This document shows, one piece after another, positions 13,984-25,052 of a DNA stretch of 64,000 bases. A program made the position numbers and the translations under genes. Each line of letters starts with the position of its first letter. The first letter of the stretch is position 1. The stretch comes from Allochromatium vinosum DSM 180. GTDB taxonomy: Bacteria > Pseudomonadota > Gammaproteobacteria > Chromatiales > Chromatiaceae. Below the pieces are notes generated by a model. It did no database searches, was not told the DNA's origin, and saw only the letters and a list, made by a program, of their open reading frames with translations. The DNA is taken from contig NC_013851.1 of assembly GCF_000025485.1 (NCBI RefSeq), forward strand, positions 1,465,154 through 1,529,153. The letters are read 5' to 3'.

Positions 13984-14092
13984 GAAAGAAACCGGTAGCT
14001 CAAAGCGTTGCCTGAAACGCCAATGTATCGCCCATCGATTCAATGGGTTGCACCGATGACTGGAACTGGGTCACGAAGGCTTTGAATCATCC

Positions 14093-14106
14093 TCCGAAAT
14101 ATCGGA
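14093..14106. promoter_or_regulatory. Palindromic operator copy 1, at the start of the sigma-54 activator gene
   Basis: The 14-mer TCCGAAATATCGGA has 5-bp inverted arms around a 4-bp AT centre. It lies 6 bp before the ATG of the activator at 14113. An identical copy is at 15796-15809 and a variant at 23624-23639. At this position a bound protein would block transcription or initiation, suggesting negative autoregulation (inference). Confidence 0.75.
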
Positions 14107-14112
14107 TTTTCT

Positions 14113-15771
14113 ATGACAAAGAACGCCAATCCAGGTAGCGGAATCACGAGCGATGCAGCGAGGCCGGCGAGTGGCGTGCCCCCGTTCATGGTGGATAGGC
14201 GCCGGCCGTCGAATGCGACCGAGGTCTCGCTCGCCGAGCGTCTGGCCTTCGAGCGTTTGCTGGGTGATCTGTCGGCGCTCTTCGCCAACCTCCCGCCTGA
14301 GCGGGTCATCGCTGAAATCGAAGCCGCCTTGGCGCGTTTGGTCGACTTTCTCGGATTCGATCGCAGTTCGTTCGGTGAATTCAGGGACGAGGATTCTCCG
14401 ATCGAGGTGCTCTGCTCGGTGGCGCGCAACGGGATCGAAACCACTCCACTGGGCGTCGGGTTGCCGCTGCCCTGGTATTTCGGCGCGCTGCGCTCCGGTC
14501 AATTGCTCGTGCTGCCGGATCTCCCGGCGGATCTGCCGCCCGAGGCCGAGATCGAAGCTGAGTTCAGCCGTCAGAGCGGATTGCGCTCGAACCTGAGTAT
14601 CCCACTGCGGGTCGGTGGGCGCGTCATGGGCGTGATCGCCTTCTCAGCCTTCCATCGTACCCGCGCCTGGCCGGAGGATCTGATCGTCCGGCTCAAGATC
14701 GTCGGCGAGGTGTTCGCTCAGGCGCTGGCGCGCAGTCGCCGCGAGACCGAGCTGGCGGCCGCGCTCGCCGAGATCACGCGCCTCAAGGAGCGGCTGGAGG
14801 CCGAGAACAGCTATCTGCGCCAGTCCGGATGTGCGCGTCCCGCCCAGATGCTGGCCAGCCGTTCACCGCGCTTCAATCAGGTGCTCGACGAGATCGCCCA
14901 AGCGGCCCCGACCAACGCCACCGTGCTCCTGCTCGGCGAGACCGGCACCGGCAAGGAGGTGCTGGCCGATACCCTCCATGCGCTGAGCCAACGCCGTGAG
15001 CGCCCCCTCATCAAGGTCAACTGCGCGGCCCTGCCGGCCTCCCTGATCGAGACCGAGCTCTTCGGGCGCGAAAAGGGTGCCTATACCGGCGCACTGGCGC
15101 GTCAGCCCGGACGCTTCGAGCTGGCCGATGGCGGCAGCCTCTTTCTCGACGAGGTTGGCGAGCTGCCGCTGGAGCTTCAGGCCAAGCTGTTGCGCGTGCT
15201 CCAGGACGGGGTGTTCGAGCGCGTCGGCGGCACCCGGACGATCCGGGTCGACGTGCGTCTGATCGCGGCGACCAACCGTAATCTGGCGCGCGCCGTCCAG
15301 GCGGGCGGTTTTCGCGAGGATCTGTTCTATCGCCTCAACGTCTTTCCGGTGACGCTGCCCCCTCTGCGCGAGCGGCGTGAGGACATCCCCTGGCTGGCCT
15401 GGGAGTTCATCAAGCACTTCAGTGACTCGATGGGCAAGCCGATCGAGCACGTCGCCGAGGACTCGATGCAGGCGCTGCTCGACTATCACTGGCCGGGCAA
15501 TGTGCGTGAACTGCGCAATCTGATCGAGCGCGCCATGATCCTGGCGCGCGGCCCCACCCTGCATGTGGCGCTCGAATGCGCACCGGCGACGACCACACGA
15601 CCGACCGCGACCGACACGCTCGCCGACAACGAGCGCGCCCATATCCTCCAGATCCTGGAGCAGACGCACTGGCGCATCCGCGGCGCGGGCGGGGCGGCGG
15701 AACGGCTCGGTCTCAAGCCGACGACGCTCGAATCGCGCATGAAACGGCTGGGATTGAGCCGATCCGGTTGA
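14113..15771 (+). CDS. Sigma-54-dependent activator: GAF-AAA+-Fis HTH
   Basis: 552 residues. Residues about 40-210 form a GAF sensor domain, 212-235 a coiled-coil linker, and about 245-475 the sigma-54 AAA+ domain: Walker A GETGTGKE (275-282), the sigma-54 contact loop as GAYTGA (322-327, a Tyr variant of GAFTGA), and Walker [12 protein letters not shown] (341-351). The last 45 residues are a Fis-type HTH of the FhlA/HyfR kind ([19 protein letters not shown]). Such proteins bind upstream sites and remodel RNA polymerase-sigma-54 when their GAF domain senses a ligand or redox state. It is flanked by two identical palindromes, and a -24/-12 promoter follows, so the downstream operon is the evident target. 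The ligand is unknown. Confidence 0.93.
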
Positions 15772-15795
15772 GGCGGATCGGTGTTTCGTGCGAAT

Positions 15796-15809
15796 TCCGA
15801 AATATCGGA
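15796..15809. promoter_or_regulatory. Palindromic activator site copy 2 (upstream activating sequence)
   Basis: An exact repeat of the 14-mer at 14093-14106. It ends 86 bp before the -24/-12 element at 15896-15910, so its centre is about -120 from the expected start site, the usual distance for a sigma-54 enhancer site. Confidence 0.78.
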
Positions 15810-15895
15810 GTTTCGACCTCCAGACCGTGGTTCGAGATCGACCGCGTCATCCTTCAAGGCGCTGATTCAGCAGCCGATCTGAATCGCGGTGGAGT

Positions 15896-15910
15896 TGGTA
15901 AATTTTTTGC
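15896..15910 (+). promoter_or_regulatory. Sigma-54 (-24/-12) promoter for the DUF1538 operon
   Basis: TGGTAAATTTTTTGC has the invariant GG and GC of sigma-54 promoters at correct spacing, and TTGC at -12. Transcription would start near 15922, about 28 nt before the ATG at 15950. The activator gene and its palindrome lie immediately upstream. Confidence 0.78.
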
Positions 15911-15949: not shown

Positions 15950-17749
15950 ATGAGTCCGACGCAGAACCAGGTTCGCTACGCCGATTATCTCCGCGCCATC
16001 GGGGCGGGGCGGCGCGAGCTGAGTTTCAACGCCATCGTCCCATCTGAGGGCCGCGATGCGCGCGGGCGTCCGCTGCCCAAATCCGCCCCCGGCCCCATCC
16101 GGTTGCATCCGGACGAGATCCTGCGTCTGCTCCAGCCCTACGTCTCGGTGCGCTTCCTGGATCAGCTCAAGGCCGTCGCGCCCCTGGCACTCTATCTGGC
16201 GCTGTTCCAGATCCTGATCCTGCGCCAGTTGATCGACGACTCCTGGCTGATCACCGGCGGTCTGTTCGCGGTGATCCTGGGTCTGATGTGTTTCATGGAG
16301 GGCTTGAAACTGGGCCTGATGCCCTTCGGCGAGCTGATCGGCCACCGCCTGCCGCGTAAGTCGCCGCTGCCGCTGGTGCTACTCATCACCCTGCTGCTCG
16401 GCATCGGCGTGACCTTCGCCGAGCCGGCGATCGGCGCGCTCCAGGCCGCCGGGCAGAACGTCTCACCCGAGCGCGCGCCCTATCTCTGGGCGCTGCTCAA
16501 CCCCTGGTCGGGCGCGCTGGTGCTGGTCATCGGCGCCGGCGTCGGACTCGCCGCCGTGCTGGGTACACTGCGCTTTCTCTATGGCTGGAGCCTCAAGCCC
16601 CTGATCTATGCGTCGCTGGTCCCGGTGATCGGGCTGACGCTCTATGGCGCGAGCCAACCGGAGCTGGCCAAGGTACTGGGTCTGGCCTGGGACGCCGGGG
16701 CCGTGACCACCGGGCCGGTCACGGTTCCGCTGGTGCTGGCGCTCGGCATCGGCATTGCGGCGGCGGCCGGGCGGGGCGACTCAGGTCTGTCGGGTTTCGG
16801 CATCGTGACCCTGGCCTCGCTTTTCCCGGTCATCGGCGTGCTGTTGCTGGCCTTCTACATCGCCGGCACCGTCACGCCGACCGAGATCCTCGCCGCCGCG
16901 ACAGCCGCCGCCAGTGCGTCGACCGGGGATCTCGCCTGGTACGCCCGCAGTCCGGGAGTGGAGGTGCTGATGGGCCTCCGCGCCATTCTGCCGCTGGTGC
17001 TGTTCCTGTTCGTCATCCTCAGGCTGGTGCTCAAGGACGAGCTGCCACGCCCGCGCGAGATCGGACTCGGCATCGCCCTGACGGTGATCGGCATGTGTCT
17101 GTTCAACCTGGAACTGACCTATGGCCTATCGGCCCTGGGCGGGAGTGCGGGCTCGCTGGTTCCGGCGGCCTTCATGGAGATTCCGGGGGCGGAAGACTCG
17201 CCGCTCTATCGCTATGGGGTCGGATTGACGCTCGCGGTGGTCTTCACCTGGGTGCTGGGCTTCGGGGCGACCTATGCCGAGCCGGCCCTCAATGCCCTGG
17301 GTGTGACCGCCGAGCAACTGACCAACGGCTTCTTCAAGAAGCGCACCCTGATCCTGGCGGTCTCGATCGGGGTCGCCTGCGGCATCGCCCTGGGCCTGAC
17401 CAAGCTGGTGTTCGACCTGCCGCTGGTGTGGCTAATCGTCCCGCCCTATCTGTTTGCTGCCATTTTGACCCTGATGTCCTCGGAAGAATTCGTGAACGTC
17501 GCCTGGGATAGCGCCGGCGTCACCACGGGGCCGATCACCGTGCCCCTGGTGCTCGCCATGGGGCTGGGTCTGGGTCAGGCGACGCACGCCGTCGAAGGCT
17601 TCGGCATCCTCTGTCTGGCCTCCATCGGCCCGATCATCAGCGTACTGCTGACCGGACTCCGGGCGCGTCGGCGACTCGGGCGGCAAACGCGCGCCGCCCA
17701 GCGCGCGCCCGTCACGCATGCCGCACTGGAGGTTCAGTCAGCACTATGA
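15950..17749 (+). CDS. Duplicated DUF1538 membrane transporter (UmpAB-like in one chain)
   Basis: 599 residues with about a dozen hydrophobic segments. The chain contains two DUF1538 units: TFAEPAIGAL and WDAGAVTTGPVTVPLVLALG in the first half, TYAEPALNAL and WDSAGVTTGPITVPLVLAMG in the second. As I recall, a two-gene DUF1538 pair (UmpAB) from a Halomonas was reported as a Na+(Li+,K+)/H+ antiporter; here both units are fused in one polypeptide. Substrate is therefore inferred to be a cation. First gene of a sigma-54-type operon; its stop overlaps the next start by 4 bp (ATGA). Confidence 0.85.
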   Translation: MSPTQNQVRYADYLRAIGAGRRELSFNAIVPSEGRDARGRPLPKSAPGPIRLHPDEILRLLQPYVSVRFLDQLKAVAPLALYLALFQILILRQLIDDSWLITGGLFAVILGLMCFMEGLKLGLMPFGELIGHRLPRKSPLPLVLLITLLLGIGVTFAEPAIGALQAAGQNVSPERAPYLWALLNPWSGALVLVIGAGVGLAAVLGTLRFLYGWSLKPLIYASLVPVIGLTLYGASQPELAKVLGLAWDAGAVTTGPVTVPLVLALGIGIAAAAGRGDSGLSGFGIVTLASLFPVIGVLLLAFYIAGTVTPTEILAAATAAASASTGDLAWYARSPGVEVLMGLRAILPLVLFLFVILRLVLKDELPRPREIGLGIALTVIGMCLFNLELTYGLSALGGSAGSLVPAAFMEIPGAEDSPLYRYGVGLTLAVVFTWVLGFGATYAEPALNALGVTAEQLTNGFFKKRTLILAVSIGVACGIALGLTKLVFDLPLVWLIVPPYLFAAILTLMSSEEFVNVAWDSAGVTTGPITVPLVLAMGLGLGQATHAVEGFGILCLASIGPIISVLLTGLRARRRLGRQTRAAQRAPVTHAALEVQSAL

Positions 17750-18520: not shown

Positions 18521-20191
18521 ATGGCTTTGATCCCGATGCGCGACTGGCTCGGCGACTATCAGCGCGGCTGGCTGCGCCTGGATCTGGTGGCGGGCCTGAC
18601 CACGGCCGCCGTGGTCATCCCCAAGGCGATGGCCTATGCCACCATCGCCGGATTGCCGGTGGAGGTCGGACTCTACACCGCCTTCGTGCCCCTGGTGATC
18701 TACGCCATCCTCGGCACCTCGCGACCGCTCAGCGTCACCACCACCACGACGCTCGCGATCCTCACCGGCACCCAGCTCGCGCTGGTGGTGCCGAACGGCG
18801 ATCCGGCGGCGCTGCTGACGGCCTCGGCGACGCTCGCGATCCTGGTCGGGGCGATGCTGATCCTGGCGGCGGTGCTGCGGCTCGGGGTCGTCGCCAGCTT
18901 CATCTCGGAGCCGGTGCTGACCGGATTCAAGGCCGGCATCGGGCTGGTCATCATCCTGGATCAGGTGCCCAAGCTGCTCGGGATCCACTTCGAGAAAGAG
19001 GGCTTCGTGCGCGACATCTTCGCGCTCATCGCGCATCTGCCCGAGACCTCGCTCGCGACCCTGGCGGTCGGCGTGGCCATGCTGGCCATCCTGCTCGGAG
19101 TCGAGCGTCTGGTCCCGCGCGCTCCGGCCCCGCTGGTCGCGGTCGCGCTCGGCATTGCCGTCTCCGGGCTGCTCGCCTTACAGGATCAGGGCGTGGCCAT
19201 CATCGGCCACATCCCCCAGGGATTGCCGGCCCTGAGCCGGCCCAACCCGGATCTGATCGCGCAACTCTGGCCCGGCGCGCTCGGTATCGCGCTGATGAGC
19301 TTCACCGAATCCATCGCCGCCGCGCGCGCCTTCGCGGGGCGGGGCGAACCACAGCCGCAGCCGAACCGCGAGCTGGTGGCGACCGGACTCGGCAACCTCG
19401 TCGGCGGCCTGTTCGGCGCCATGCCGGGCGGCGGCGGCACCTCACAGACGGCGGTGAACCGGCGTGCCGGCGCCCGTACTCAGGTCGCCGGTCTGGTGAC
19501 GGCAGTGGCCGCCGTCGCGACCCTGCTCCTGCTCGCACCCCTGATGGGCCTGATGCCGCAGGCGACCCTGGCGGCTGTGGTCATCGTCTATTCGATCGGG
19601 CTGATCCAGCCGGTCGAGCTCTTCGACATCCTGAAGATCCGGCGCATGGAGTTTCTCTGGGCGCTGGCCGCTTTCGCCGGCGTGGTGGTGCTCGGGACGC
19701 TCAAGGGGATTCTGGTGGCCATTATCGTCTCCCTGGTGTCGCTGGCCTATCAGGCCGCGCATCCCCGGCTCTATGTGCTGGGGCGCAAGCCGGGCACGGA
19801 TGTCTTCCGTCCGAGAACGGATGCGCACCCGGAGGACGAGACCGTCCCCGGACTGCTGATGGTGCGGCCGGAGGGGCGTCTGTTCTTCGCCAATGCCCAA
19901 CGGATCGGCGAGCAGCTCTGGCCGCTGATCGAGGCCGCCGAACCGCGCGTACTGGTGATGGACTTCAGCGCCGTGATCGACATCGAGTACTCGGCGCTCA
20001 AGATGCTGGTCGAGGGCGAGGAGCGGCTGCGTGCGCGCGGTATCGAACTCTGGCTGGTGGCGCTCAATCCCGAGGTGCTCGGCATGGTCCAGCGCTCTTC
20101 ACTCGGCGAGACCCTTGGTCGCGAGCGGCTCCTGTTCAATCTCTCGCTGGCCGTCGAGCGGTTTCGCACTCAAGTCGCTCCGGTTGATTGA
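18521..20191 (+). CDS. SulP-family anion transporter with STAS domain
   Basis: 556 residues: about 12-14 membrane segments in residues 20-425, then a C-terminal STAS domain (about 440-550; VMDFSAVIDIEYSALKML is its core). The transmembrane signature near the N-terminus, PKAMAYATIAGLPVEVGLYTA, resembles SLC26/SulP proteins (sulfate, bicarbonate or other anions). I chose ATG 18521, which starts MALIPMRDWLGDY; upstream in-frame codons overlap the PII-like gene. Next to PII-like genes, a bicarbonate or anion role is plausible but unproven. Confidence 0.92.
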   Translation: MALIPMRDWLGDYQRGWLRLDLVAGLTTAAVVIPKAMAYATIAGLPVEVGLYTAFVPLVIYAILGTSRPLSVTTTTTLAILTGTQLALVVPNGDPAALLTASATLAILVGAMLILAAVLRLGVVASFISEPVLTGFKAGIGLVIILDQVPKLLGIHFEKEGFVRDIFALIAHLPETSLATLAVGVAMLAILLGVERLVPRAPAPLVAVALGIAVSGLLALQDQGVAIIGHIPQGLPALSRPNPDLIAQLWPGALGIALMSFTESIAAARAFAGRGEPQPQPNRELVATGLGNLVGGLFGAMPGGGGTSQTAVNRRAGARTQVAGLVTAVAAVATLLLLAPLMGLMPQATLAAVVIVYSIGLIQPVELFDILKIRRMEFLWALAAFAGVVVLGTLKGILVAIIVSLVSLAYQAAHPRLYVLGRKPGTDVFRPRTDAHPEDETVPGLLMVRPEGRLFFANAQRIGEQLWPLIEAAEPRVLVMDFSAVIDIEYSALKMLVEGEERLRARGIELWLVALNPEVLGMVQRSSLGETLGRERLLFNLSLAVERFRTQVAPVD

Positions 20192-20232
20192 GGCATCCGC
20201 CAGACACAGTCCGCGACGTTGAGAAATTTCCC

Positions 20233-21300
20233 ATGCAGCCGCAAAACGCATTCGTGGCCAATGCCCTTGAAGCGACCATCCGTATCGCTCTACTGCTGGT
20301 GCTGGCGGCTTGGTGCTTCGATATCGTCAAGCCGTTCGTCATCCCCATCGCCTGGGGGATCATCATCGCGGTGGCGCAGTACCCCGGTTATCTCAGGCTG
20401 CGCGCCTGGCTCGGCGGGCGCCGGCGCGCCGCCGCCACCCTGATGGTCGTGATCGATCTCCTGGTGCTGCTGGTCCCGGCCGTACTCTTGAGCGACACAC
20501 TGTTGGACGGCGCCCAGAATCTTGCCAAAGGGTTGCAAGAAGGCACGCTGGCTGTTCCGCGACCACCTGAGTCGATCAAGGACTGGCCTCTGGTCGGCGA
20601 GCCGCTCAACGTCTTCTGGAACCAGGCGTCCCAGAACCTGGCCGAGACAGCCGCCAAGTTCGCTCCCCAGCTCAAGGCGTCGGCTGGATGGTTGCTGGCC
20701 ACCGTTGCGGGAGCTGGGTTCAGCGTCCTGCAGTTCATCATCGCCATCATCATTGCGGGAGCGCTGCTGGCGCATTCGGACGCTTCCGCTGAATTCGCCC
20801 GGGCCGTCGCCACGCGCCTGGCGGGCGAGAAGGGCGAGGAGCTCGCCCGGCTCGCGGAGACCATCGTGCGTAGCGTCACCAAGGGCATTCTGGGGGTGGC
20901 GCTGATCCAGGCCATCCTGGCGGGGATCGGCTTCATGGTCATGGGGATCCCTGCCGCCGGACTCTGGGCACTGCTGTGTCTGCTGCTCAGCACGGTGCAG
21001 ATCGGCATCTTTCCGATCACCCTGCCGATCCTGATCTATGTCTTTGCGACGGCCGACACGGTGCCGGCGGTGCTCTTCCTGGTCTGGAGTCTCATCGTCG
21101 GCAGCCTGGATAACGTGCTCAAGCCCCTGGTGCTAGGACGTGGTGTGCAGGTGCCCATGGCCGTGATCTTCGTGGGCGCCATCGGCGGCTTCATCAGCTC
21201 CGGCATTATCGGACTCTTCGTCGGTGCCGTGGTGCTGACGCTCGGCTACAAGCTGCTCCTGGCCTGGGTGTATGAGCGACCCAAAGAATCGTCCGTGTAG
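20233..21300 (+). CDS. AI-2E/PerM-family transporter (UPF0118)
   Basis: 355 residues with about eight membrane segments in the pattern of the AI-2E/PerM family (LSTVQIGIFPITLPILIYVF, GSLDNVLKPLVLGRGVQVPMAVIFVGAIGG region). Characterised members export autoinducer-2 or act as Na+/H+ antiporters, so a cation role would fit this operon. The TTG at 20188 is an alternative start; the ATG at 20233 begins just before the first hydrophobic stretch. It follows the SulP gene by 41 bp. Confidence 0.85.
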   Translation: MQPQNAFVANALEATIRIALLLVLAAWCFDIVKPFVIPIAWGIIIAVAQYPGYLRLRAWLGGRRRAAATLMVVIDLLVLLVPAVLLSDTLLDGAQNLAKGLQEGTLAVPRPPESIKDWPLVGEPLNVFWNQASQNLAETAAKFAPQLKASAGWLLATVAGAGFSVLQFIIAIIIAGALLAHSDASAEFARAVATRLAGEKGEELARLAETIVRSVTKGILGVALIQAILAGIGFMVMGIPAAGLWALLCLLLSTVQIGIFPITLPILIYVFATADTVPAVLFLVWSLIVGSLDNVLKPLVLGRGVQVPMAVIFVGAIGGFISSGIIGLFVGAVVLTLGYKLLLAWVYERPKESSV

Positions 21301-22955: not shown

Positions 22956-23234
22956 TCAGGCTCCCGGCTCGTTCTTCAACGCCTGGTCCGTGATCTCTTT
23001 ATACAGATGAACCGCGCGGGCATAGAGCTTCTCGTATTCCGGCCGCTTGTCGATGTACGACTTGATGTGTTCGGCATCCTCCATGACCTGCTTGAGGTGA
23101 CTGATGTCGGAGTCATCGAGCGGCTCACCCCGATCGACCTTGGCCTTGATGTCGAGCGCGCGCGGAAGTCGAAACTTCTCGAAGCGCTCAAGGATGGTGA
23201 CGATCACGCCTTCTTCATGTGAGAGCTCGCTCAT
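22956..23234 (-). CDS. Small conserved hypothetical protein, 92 residues
   Basis: A short, acidic/charged helical protein ([27 protein letters not shown]) with no membrane segment, signal or known motif. It resembles small proteins of unknown function found in many gammaproteobacteria. It faces the preceding hypothetical gene convergently and is transcribed away from the sigma-54 regulatory region at 23624-23750. Confidence 0.72.
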
Positions 23235-23623
23235 GGTGTCTTCCTGGGCTGTGTGTCGAATTTGAAATGCACGACGGCGACTAACGCAGAGGCGGAGTCA
23301 TCACCGCGCCTCGCGGGTGAGGATCAAGGGCGGCACAGATCGAGTTCTCATCTGGAATCGTTGATCGGATCGTTCTGTGCGACCCGATGAAAGCAAATCG
23401 CCCGCCAACTGGACGCAAAGCCGTGTGCTATGGCGCGAATCGCGTCAAATCAGAGTGTTGGGCGCCTCCAGTATCGATGGAGACATTGTGTCGCGACAGA
23501 GGCCCACGACATATCGGAGGATCTACGAATCGCAACGGGGTCGCGCCCGAATCGAAGGCGTCGATGCCGTGGATGACATTGACGTCGCTCCGAGACGAAT
23601 GCGGCGCGTCTGATTCGTGGAAA

Positions 23624-23639
23624 CTCTGATATTTCAGAG
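23624..23639. promoter_or_regulatory. Palindromic activator site copy 3 (variant)
   Basis: CTCTGATATTTCAGAG has perfect 6-bp arms around TATT. Read on the other strand, copies 1 and 2 are TCCGATATTTCGGA; this site differs only by one symmetric C-to-T change in each arm (TCTGATATTTCAGA). It ends 96 bp upstream of a -24/-12 promoter, matching the layout of copy 2. Confidence 0.72.
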
Positions 23640-23735
23640 GATGAGATCGGAGCCATGCCGTCTTTCGGACCCGATGTGACGATCAAACCATTGATCGGAA
23701 AAGCCATCTTCATCTCCAGCCGTGCTTTCAGTTCA

Positions 23736-23750
23736 TGGCCCTTTTTTTGC
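23736..23750 (+). promoter_or_regulatory. Sigma-54 (-24/-12) promoter for the ABM-PPK2 operon
   Basis: TGGCCCTTTTTTTGC carries GG and GC at exact sigma-54 spacing with TTGC at -12 and the same T-run as the 15896 promoter. The expected start is near 23762, giving an about 100-nt leader before ATG 23863. Confidence 0.75.
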
Positions 23751-23862
23751 TGTATAGCCCGTATCGTTCAGCCGCGTCGAGTCTGTGGGCGCCATAGATC
23801 CCACGCCAGGCGCCTGCTGGCCGAACGAACCGGCTCCCTGTCGTTTTGCACGAGACCTCCGA

Positions 23863-24210
23863 ATGATCATCTTTTCGATGAGCATCTTCGTCCCGTCGTC
23901 GCAACACGCCGATCTGGCGCGCACACTGGGCGCCCTGCTCGAACCCGTCCGGGTGGCGCCGGGCTGTCTGCGCTGCCAGCTCTATACCGACTTCGATGAC
24001 CCCAATGGGTTCATGCTGGTGGAGGAATGGGACTCACAGGCCATGCTGGACCGGCATCTGCGATCCGATGCCTGCAAGACGCTGCTTGCCGCAATCGAAC
24101 TCTCCACCCGACCGCCCGTGATCCGTTTCGATCATGTGGCGCGGCGCGCCGGGATCGAGGTCATGGAACGGGCGCGCCGTCCGACCAACATCCAGGAGAT
24201 CCGCCGATGA
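23863..24210 (+). CDS. ABM-domain (antibiotic biosynthesis monooxygenase-like) protein
   Basis: 115 residues with the dimeric alpha/beta-barrel ABM pattern: an N-terminal strand, GCLRCQLYTDFDDPNGFMLVEEW and a C-terminal helix with RHLRSDACK. Members are small quinol/heme-related monooxygenases or unknown stress proteins. ATG 23863 begins the first strand; the upstream extension runs into the leader. It is the first gene after the sigma-54 promoter and overlaps the PPK2 start by 4 bp. Confidence 0.8.
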   Translation: MIIFSMSIFVPSSQHADLARTLGALLEPVRVAPGCLRCQLYTDFDDPNGFMLVEEWDSQAMLDRHLRSDACKTLLAAIELSTRPPVIRFDHVARRAGIEVMERARRPTNIQEIRR

Positions 24211-25052
24211 AGAAGAACACGTCCGCCAAACCGTCCGACGTCGTCGAAGAGGCGGCCGCCCAGGAACCCGAGACGCTCGTGAAGCTCAAGACCAAGACCT
24301 ACGAGAAAGAACTGGCCAAGCTCCATGTCGAGCTGGTCAAGCTCCAGGAGTGGGTGCGTCACGCGGGACTCAAAGTGTGCATCGTCTTCGAGGGTCGTGA
24401 CGGCGCGGGCAAGGGCGGCACCATCAAGGCTATCACCGAGCGGGTCAGTCCGCGCGTCTTCCGCGTGGTGGCGCTGCCGGCGCCGACCGAGCGCGAGAAG
24501 ACCCAGATCTATATCCAGCGCTACATGCGCCATTTCCCGGCGGCCGGGGAGATCGTCATCTTCGACCGCAGCTGGTACAACCGCGCCGGGGTCGAGCGGG
24601 TCATGGGGTTCTGCACCGAGGAGCAGACCGAGCGCTTTCTGAGTCTGGCGCCGATGTTCGAGCGGGCGATGGTCGACTCGGGCCTCATCCTGATCAAATA
24701 CTGGCTGGAGGTCAGTCCCGAGGAGCAGACGCGGCGTCTTTCAGCGCGCATCGAGGACGGGCGCAAGCTCTGGAAGCTCTCGCCGATGGATCTGCAATCC
24801 TACAGCCGCTGGTACGACTATTCGCGGGCGCGCGACGCCATGTTCGCGGCGACCGATACCGAGTTCGCGCCCTGGTTCGTGGCCCGCTCCGACGACAAGA
24901 AGCGCGCGCGGCTCAACATCATCCGGCATTTGTTGAGCCGTATCCCCTACGAGGAACTGCCGCGCGAGCACATCGTCCTGCCCAAGCGTCAGAAACCGCA
25001 CGGGTATCGCGAGCCGGATTATCCGTTCAAGTTCATCCCAGAGACGGTCTGA
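24207..25052 (+). CDS. Polyphosphate kinase 2 (single-domain PPK2)
   Basis: 281 residues. Walker A is FEGRDGAGKGG at about 61-71 and Walker B FDRSWYNRAG at about 118-127, followed by the YWLEVSPEEQ and WKLSPMDLQS segments of PPK2. PPK2 enzymes use polyphosphate to phosphorylate NDPs or NMPs. Length and motifs fit the one-domain classes (I or III), so the product would be ATP/GTP. A second, two-domain PPK2 protein is encoded at 37358-38938. Overlap with the preceding ABM gene indicates co-translation. Confidence 0.93.
   Translation: MKKNTSAKPSDVVEEAAAQEPETLVKLKTKTYEKELAKLHVELVKLQEWVRHAGLKVCIVFEGRDGAGKGGTIKAITERVSPRVFRVVALPAPTEREKTQIYIQRYMRHFPAAGEIVIFDRSWYNRAGVERVMGFCTEEQTERFLSLAPMFERAMVDSGLILIKYWLEVSPEEQTRRLSARIEDGRKLWKLSPMDLQSYSRWYDYSRARDAMFAATDTEFAPWFVARSDDKKRARLNIIRHLLSRIPYEELPREHIVLPKRQKPHGYREPDYPFKFIPETV

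Follow-up and report, generated by a model that had tools for sequence, protein, structure and literature searches.

The window considered here, the whole 64,000-nucleotide stretch of the Allochromatium vinosum genome that was analysed, encodes a GAF-AAA+-HTH activator and carries, ahead of a gene of the antibiotic biosynthesis monooxygenase (ABM) family, a palindrome with a -24/-12 element downstream of it. This arrangement raises the question of whether the palindrome (site 3 below) serves the activator as an enhancer. Judged from the DNA and its comparison across genomes, site 3 is very probably the enhancer (upstream activating sequence) of a sigma-54 promoter and bound by the GAF-AAA+-HTH activator, while sites 2, 3 and 4 together would represent three enhancer-promoter cassettes of a local sigma-54 regulon. 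Such a regulon is of a well-known kind, namely a GAF-AAA+-HTH activator working with sigma-54.

Palindromes and -24/-12 elements in the window

The elements under discussion are the following:
14092-14107, no strand assigned: site 1, a palindrome separated by 5 bp from the ATG at 14113; perhaps autoregulatory
14113-15771, plus strand: activator gene, GAF - AAA+ (GAYTGA) - Fis-type HTH (Pfam GAF, Sigma54_activat, HTH_8)
15776-15791, plus strand: putative distal partner of site 2, GATCGGTGTTTCGTGC, with 5/6 core bases
15795-15810, plus strand: site 2, TTCCGAAATATCGGAG, a match to the motif
15896-15910, plus strand: -24/-12 element TGGTAAATTTTTTGC of site 2, 85 bp from it
23393-23407, minus strand: -24/-12 element TGGCGGGCGATTTGC of site 4, 96 bp from it and pointing left
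23504-23519, minus strand: site 4, CTCCGATATGTCGTGG, divergent and 104 bp to the left of site 3
23523-23538, minus strand: degenerate distal partner of site 4, CCGTTGCGATTCGTAG, with the right half TCGTAG kept
23605-23620, plus strand: degenerate distal partner of site 3, CGCGTCTGATTCGTGG, with the right half TCGTGG kept at 19-bp spacing
23624-23639, plus strand: site 3, CTCTGATATTTCAGAG, the main (proximal) palindrome of the proposed enhancer
23736-23750, plus strand: -24/-12 element TGGCCCTTTTTTTGC of site 3, 96 bp downstream of it

Within site 3, seven of the eight base pairs are complementary, and its gap and core recur in relatives. The element TGGCCCTTTTTTTGC carries nine of ten consensus bases with GG and GC 10 bp apart, the signature of a sigma-54-dependent promoter. 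The 96-bp gap falls within the roughly 80-150 bp upstream that are typical of enhancers, and such spacing recurs in relatives (mostly 92-100 and 112-119 bp). The initial annotation had described this palindrome and its own -24/-12 element at exactly these positions, and both are present as claimed. It had further portrayed site 3 as differing from two other sites by one symmetric change per half: the two symmetric changes are there, but the mismatches total three rather than two (one terminal base each). Likewise, the reported gap of 96 bp for site 3 was correct, while that of site 2, given as about 87 bp, measures 85 bp and thus lies outside the usual 94-98 bp.

Site 4, which the initial annotation had missed, has exactly the sequence of the site that follows the activator gene in Thiocystis violacea (L011:4303). 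A pattern search detected no -24/-12 element within 186 bp of site 1 on either strand, and site 1 may have another role that does without a nearby element of this type. In Allochromatium palmeri (L018, near 9986), only the left half of site 1 is retained.

Recurrence within the genome and among relatives

Four matches to the motif with at most three mismatches (at three places) occurred in the window against 0.17 expected, and none of 100 shuffles reached four. The strict motif CTCYGATATTTCRGAG, allowing one mismatch, was found at just three places in the whole genome (3.67 Mb), all of them within this locus, so we rejected the notion of a scattered repeat; with up to three mismatches it returned 33 rows genome-wide, its reversed control 11. 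Taken by itself, the degenerate motif CTCYGANATNTCRKRG was not enriched genome-wide (12 matches versus 11 for the reversed control), and specificity would therefore have to come from the strict motif or from pairing with a promoter. Widespread occurrence at random positions, the outcome against which the original proposal had been set, was not what we observed for the strict motif.

A single -24/-12 match means little, since 41 sequences in the window score at least 8/10 as such elements. When all 4096 possible half-sites were compared, only CTCCGA and the GC-rich GCGGCG gave three pairs in the window with palindrome and -24/-12 element 84-100 bp apart (mean, 0.048). Because CTCCGA was derived from the window itself, an independent test has to come from other genomes, to which 29 of the 32 pairs described below belong. 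Two genome-wide searches for a looser palindrome together with a -24/-12 element returned eight rows (control, 0) and four rows (control, 1). Of the 12 rows, sites 2, 3 and 4 alone have both at least 4/6 outer pairs and at least 3/4 A/T in the centre. The best of the remaining nine—in which one promoter appears in both searches—is located at 614486-614609 and has 5/6 pairs, a gap of 95 bp and a G/C-rich centre. Eight of these nine sit in stop-to-stop frames of at least 291 codons; frame length was nevertheless dropped as a ground for discarding them, as site 2 itself lies in a 327-codon frame. In its strict form, the cassette was found in only four of 57 family genomes, this one included (six rows; control, 1). 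A possible further cassette outside the known loci is located in genome G015 (L089, locus centre, minus strand), where GTCCGAAATGTCGGAC lies 86 bp from TGGCAAGGTGCTTGC with 6/6 pairs.

For the comparison with relatives, we used the best 80 of 225 stretches encoding relatives of the activator gene at 14113-15771. The nearest of these stem mostly from Chromatiaceae and other Gammaproteobacteria, and the remainder from Geobacter and other Deltaproteobacteria, Nitrospirota, Acidobacteria, Methylomirabilota and more. A pair was defined as a palindrome with at most two mismatches over 12 outer positions, upstream of a -24/-12 element at a gap of 60-140 bp. The 80 loci and the window held 32 such pairs (three in the window), against a mean of 2.8 and a maximum of 18 for 150 permuted half-sites, although the 32 are not independent, as the loci are related and some pairs share a palindrome or a promoter. 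Gaps of 92-100 bp accounted for 15 pairs (two in the window), compared with a mean of 0.25 and a maximum of 3 among the same number of permuted half-sites. A count blind to the motif, made in the 45 of 80 loci that have a -24/-12 score of at least 8/10 after the activator, gave 18 strong palindromes at gaps of 93-100 bp (2.25 per gap; a range picked after seeing the data) and 39 at the other 72 gaps within 60-139 bp (0.54 per gap). In the other 35 loci, the best element after the activator scored below 8 or was absent; no callable site was found after the activator in 36 of the 80. The enrichment upstream of -24/-12 elements that the initial annotation had put forward as a check thus came out in its favour, as a preferred distance in relatives, and the same recurrence of the spacing sustains its argument against chance and its view of site 3 as a variant activator site with its own promoter.

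Closer to A. vinosum, a full-length close relative of the activator is present in two of eight genomes of the genus (100% and 90% identity), and TTCCGAAATATCGGAG was listed in exactly the same two. Palindromes from three of the remaining six genomes (L106, L109 and L112) have no -24/-12 element 60-140 bp downstream. In the nearest species, A. palmeri, the ABM gene lies behind the DUF1538 row and no such cassette was seen before it; site 3 is therefore not conserved in place.

The second group of gaps in relatives, 112-119 bp, fits a partner palindrome 19 bp away, separated by a 3-bp linker. In some relatives, palindromes spaced by 19 bp form a tandem enhancer, and the three promoters of the window (sites 2, 3 and 4) retain a partner half-site at this spacing. 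At site 3, the layout reads CGCGTCTGATTCGTGG-aaa-CTCTGATATTTCAGAG, the distal copy retaining its right half only; the linker aaa is found in several Chromatiaceae, and this spacer recurs together with the half-site TCGTGG 19 bp upstream in other members of the family (for example L015 and L016). A partner at offset -19 reached a core of at least 4/6 in 12 of 35 cases. Exact TCG stood at -19 in six of 32 loci and at +19 in five, with three or fewer at every other offset but 0, and exact CGA stood at -19 in four loci, the same number as at +8. Offsets -8 and +8 also scored high (14/35 and 7/35 with a core of at least 4), which we take as probable self-overlap of the core, exact TCG being rare there (2/32 and 1/32). 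Two further palindromes lie about 100 bp upstream of called sites, ACACGATATTTCGTGT (L047, gap 201) and GGGCGATATTTCGCGC (L050, gap 198), suggesting more distant copies of the putative enhancer. Between enhancer and promoter, an IHF-like sequence was present in 15 of 35 cases versus 12% of mononucleotide shuffles, a difference that is no more than suggestive.

The activator and competing readings

The protein encoded at 14113-15771 combines a GAF domain, a Sigma54_activat domain and a Fis-type HTH with a GAFTGA-type loop, here reading GAYTGA, and thereby belongs to the enhancer-binding proteins with an N-terminal GAF domain. Its start is uncertain between 14113 and M26 at 14188: the homologs of L011-L013 align from residues 2-12, but the A. 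palmeri homolog shows no alignment before residue 25, which would be compatible with a start at 14188. The genome also encodes sigma-54 (rpoN; PF04552, E 1.2e-69), and it contains eight matches to the activator at E<=1e-60, of which the other seven cover mainly the AAA+ part.

We compared the activator with three known proteins. NifA, an AAA+-HTH activator with a GAF domain like the protein studied here, gave its highest NCBIfam and PDB sequence matches. However, the score of 386.6 bits falls under the cut-off of 528.85, no nif gene was present among the window proteins scanned, and the NifA enhancer, TGT-N10-ACA, is unlike the window palindrome. FhlA, the second-best NCBIfam match by score, is likewise a sigma-54 activator with palindromic enhancer sites, but the window activator reaches 368.5 bits against a cut-off of 830, matches from model position 344 onwards, and differs in its palindrome and target genes; the enhancer of FhlA, the formate hydrogenlyase activator, is given as CATTTCGTACGAAATG (PMC4987338). 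NorR is likewise a GAF-AAA+-HTH one-component activator with several enhancer sites upstream of one promoter: three sites precede norVW, and the NorR site has the form GT-N7-AC (PMC4987338). Here, too, the score remains under the cut-off (340.4 versus 476 bits), and, in contrast to the NorR system, no NO-reductase gene was among the window proteins scanned. With all NCBIfam equivalog scores below their cut-offs, we rejected an assignment to FhlA, NorR or NifA.

The outer bases of the palindrome offer a link to the protein. TG occupied these positions for eight of nine activators whose HTH carries Arg at the K-[P/R]-[T/S] position, versus one of 32 with Pro; sites were called without using the outer bases, and three rows of other classes were set aside. 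The association has a Fisher p of 8e-7, a value that ignores kinship and concerns a pattern to which these very loci had first drawn attention. The residue and the outer bases each changed four times in a quick tree that left out the HTH. Restricting the analysis to well-supported branches left two independent pairs, too few for significance; on average, the site followed suit in 1.7 of them. As the outer bases vary with a residue of the recognition helix, they are pointing to the neighbouring GAF activator as the probable binder of the palindrome.

How do other readings of the palindrome fare? Some other regulator, be it a repressor or one more of the sigma-54 activators of the genome, might bind it, with the neighbourhood of the GAF activator being incidental; the genome-wide matches noted above, seven of the eight aligning mainly over the AAA+ part, do reveal other activators. 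We consider this very unlikely, however: the sites adjoin relatives of the GAF activator in distant lineages, their flanks go with the HTH residue of that protein, TTCCGAAATATCGGAG was listed only in the two of eight genus genomes with a close activator relative, and the palindromes of L106, L109 and L112 do not have a -24/-12 element 60-140 bp downstream. Alternatively, the palindromes could be operators at which the activator acts mainly as a repressor and not via an enhancer. The position of site 1, ending 5 bp before the ATG and devoid of a -24/-12 partner, would agree with such a role, yet the preferred distance to -24/-12 elements—for sites 2-4 as well as in relatives—and the sigma-54 activator domain of the protein make it highly improbable.

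Finally, site 3 might be a decayed or accidental palindrome next to a chance -24/-12 match in T-rich DNA. The abundance of high-scoring elements in the window and the missing cassette before ABM in A. palmeri are in line with this. We nevertheless regard coincidence as extremely improbable, since a gap of 96 bp is also what relatives show, other Chromatiaceae share both the spacer aaa and the half-site TCGTGG at 19 bp upstream, and the first gene downstream, ABM, is likewise found after the activator in 32 of 74 relative loci. The preferred reading remains that of site 3 as very probably the enhancer of a sigma-54 promoter under the GAF activator.

Target genes and the proposed regulon

The genes next to the three promoters are as follows:
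15950-17749, plus strand: DUF1538 protein, first after the site-2 promoter, joining a UmpA-like and a UmpB-like half in a single chain (scores below NCBIfam cut-offs)
22956-23234, minus strand: ORF of 92 aa that matches no Pfam family, proposed as the target of site 4; a homolog follows the Thiorhodococcus (L008) enhancer/promoter
23863-24210, plus strand: ABM family gene, first after the site-3 promoter (Pfam ABM, E 2e-13, obtained on the longer frame 23785-24207)
24207-25052, plus strand: PPK2 polyphosphate kinase gene, second in the row, its start overlapping the ABM stop (TIGR03707 over cut-off; Pfam scan on frame 24027-25049)

ABM and PPK2 are followed on the same strand by a 159-aa ORF, an HlyD-like protein (below NCBIfam cut-offs), DUF2092 and more ORFs including a DUF900 hydrolase, and we infer that these genes form one transcript. 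Downstream of DUF1538, the segment 15950-18515 contains a PII-like ORF, whose Pfam P-II match is weak and below the cut-off, and another small ORF that matches no Pfam family; next to them is a putative SulP-like transporter, labelled so from its sequence.

Using the window's own 17 proteins as queries, an ABM match beginning no more than 700 bp downstream of the activator's end was found in 32 of the 74 relative loci with at least 900 bp of sequence after the activator, many of these matches having only 24-40% identity. Thiocystis (L011) has ABM with its own enhancer and promoter at 97 bp, the gene after the enhancer/promoter is PPK2 in L009, and A. palmeri has DUF1538 in this position and ABM and PPK2 farther along the same row. 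Together with the Thiorhodococcus homolog of the 92-aa ORF, these arrangements argue that the cassette precedes now one, now another member of a single gene set. Geobacter (L025) has different genes downstream (acyl-CoA dehydrogenase, an AMP-binding enzyme and branched-chain transport), and the role of the regulon would thus not be identical everywhere. A Desulfobacteraceae locus (L051:2871-9417) encodes ABM, a pyridine nucleotide-disulphide oxidoreductase with a rhodanese domain, a sulfate permease family protein and a weak NMT1-like protein.

Under the proposed mechanism, dimers of the activator would bind the palindrome, with its core CGA-N4-TCG, plus the weaker partner site 19 bp upstream. 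Upon reception of a signal by the GAF domain, the dimers would assemble into an AAA+ ring, the DNA would bend, perhaps with IHF, and the ring would remodel sigma-54 polymerase at TGGCCCTTTTTTTGC, switching on ABM, PPK2 and the genes behind. Site 4 would act likewise on the divergent 92-aa ORF and site 2 on the DUF1538/PII-like/SulP-like row, while site 1 may adjust how strongly the activator itself is expressed. The analysis shows the sequences, their spacing, how they recur in relatives, that the strict motif is specific to this locus of the genome, that HTH residue and site are associated, and that a sigma-54 gene is present; from these we infer that the activator binds and assembles into a ring, as well as the signal, the bending, the extent of the operons and the autoregulation.

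In Halomonas, DUF1538 pairs (UmpAB) have been reported to function as a Na+(Li+, K+)/H+ antiporter (PMC5484666), and a member of the UPF0118/AI-2E family has been reported as a Na+(Li+)/H+ antiporter (PMC7221264). Given these reports and an AI-2E-family gene in the window (20188-21300), an ion or envelope role for the regulon would be our guess. Among the literature matches listed—titles and abstract beginnings from outside preprints and most subscription journals—there was no description of the regulon.

Beyond this locus, we tentatively entertain, with slightly less than even confidence, that the activator belongs to a so far undescribed but widespread family of one-component sigma-54 activators with a GAF domain, represented by record title in Gammaproteobacteria, Deltaproteobacteria, Nitrospirota, Acidobacteria, Aminicenantes and Methylomirabilota. 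Its palindromes would often be tandem, with the core CGA-N4-TCG and outer bases set by the Pro/Arg residue. In Chromatiaceae, the family would govern an envelope/ion-homeostasis regulon of reshuffled genes with the cassette attached (ABM monooxygenase, polyphosphate kinase, ion/sulfate transporters, PII-like proteins and envelope DUF proteins).

The proposed cassettes provide a testable DNA code for an uncharacterised activator family and name its likely direct targets: ABM, PPK2, the DUF1538 antiporter-like protein and the 92-aa ORF. The match between HTH residue and outer bases, if true, would offer a natural handle on HTH specificity in this class of proteins, and the target genes hint at where the activator's signal may be sought.
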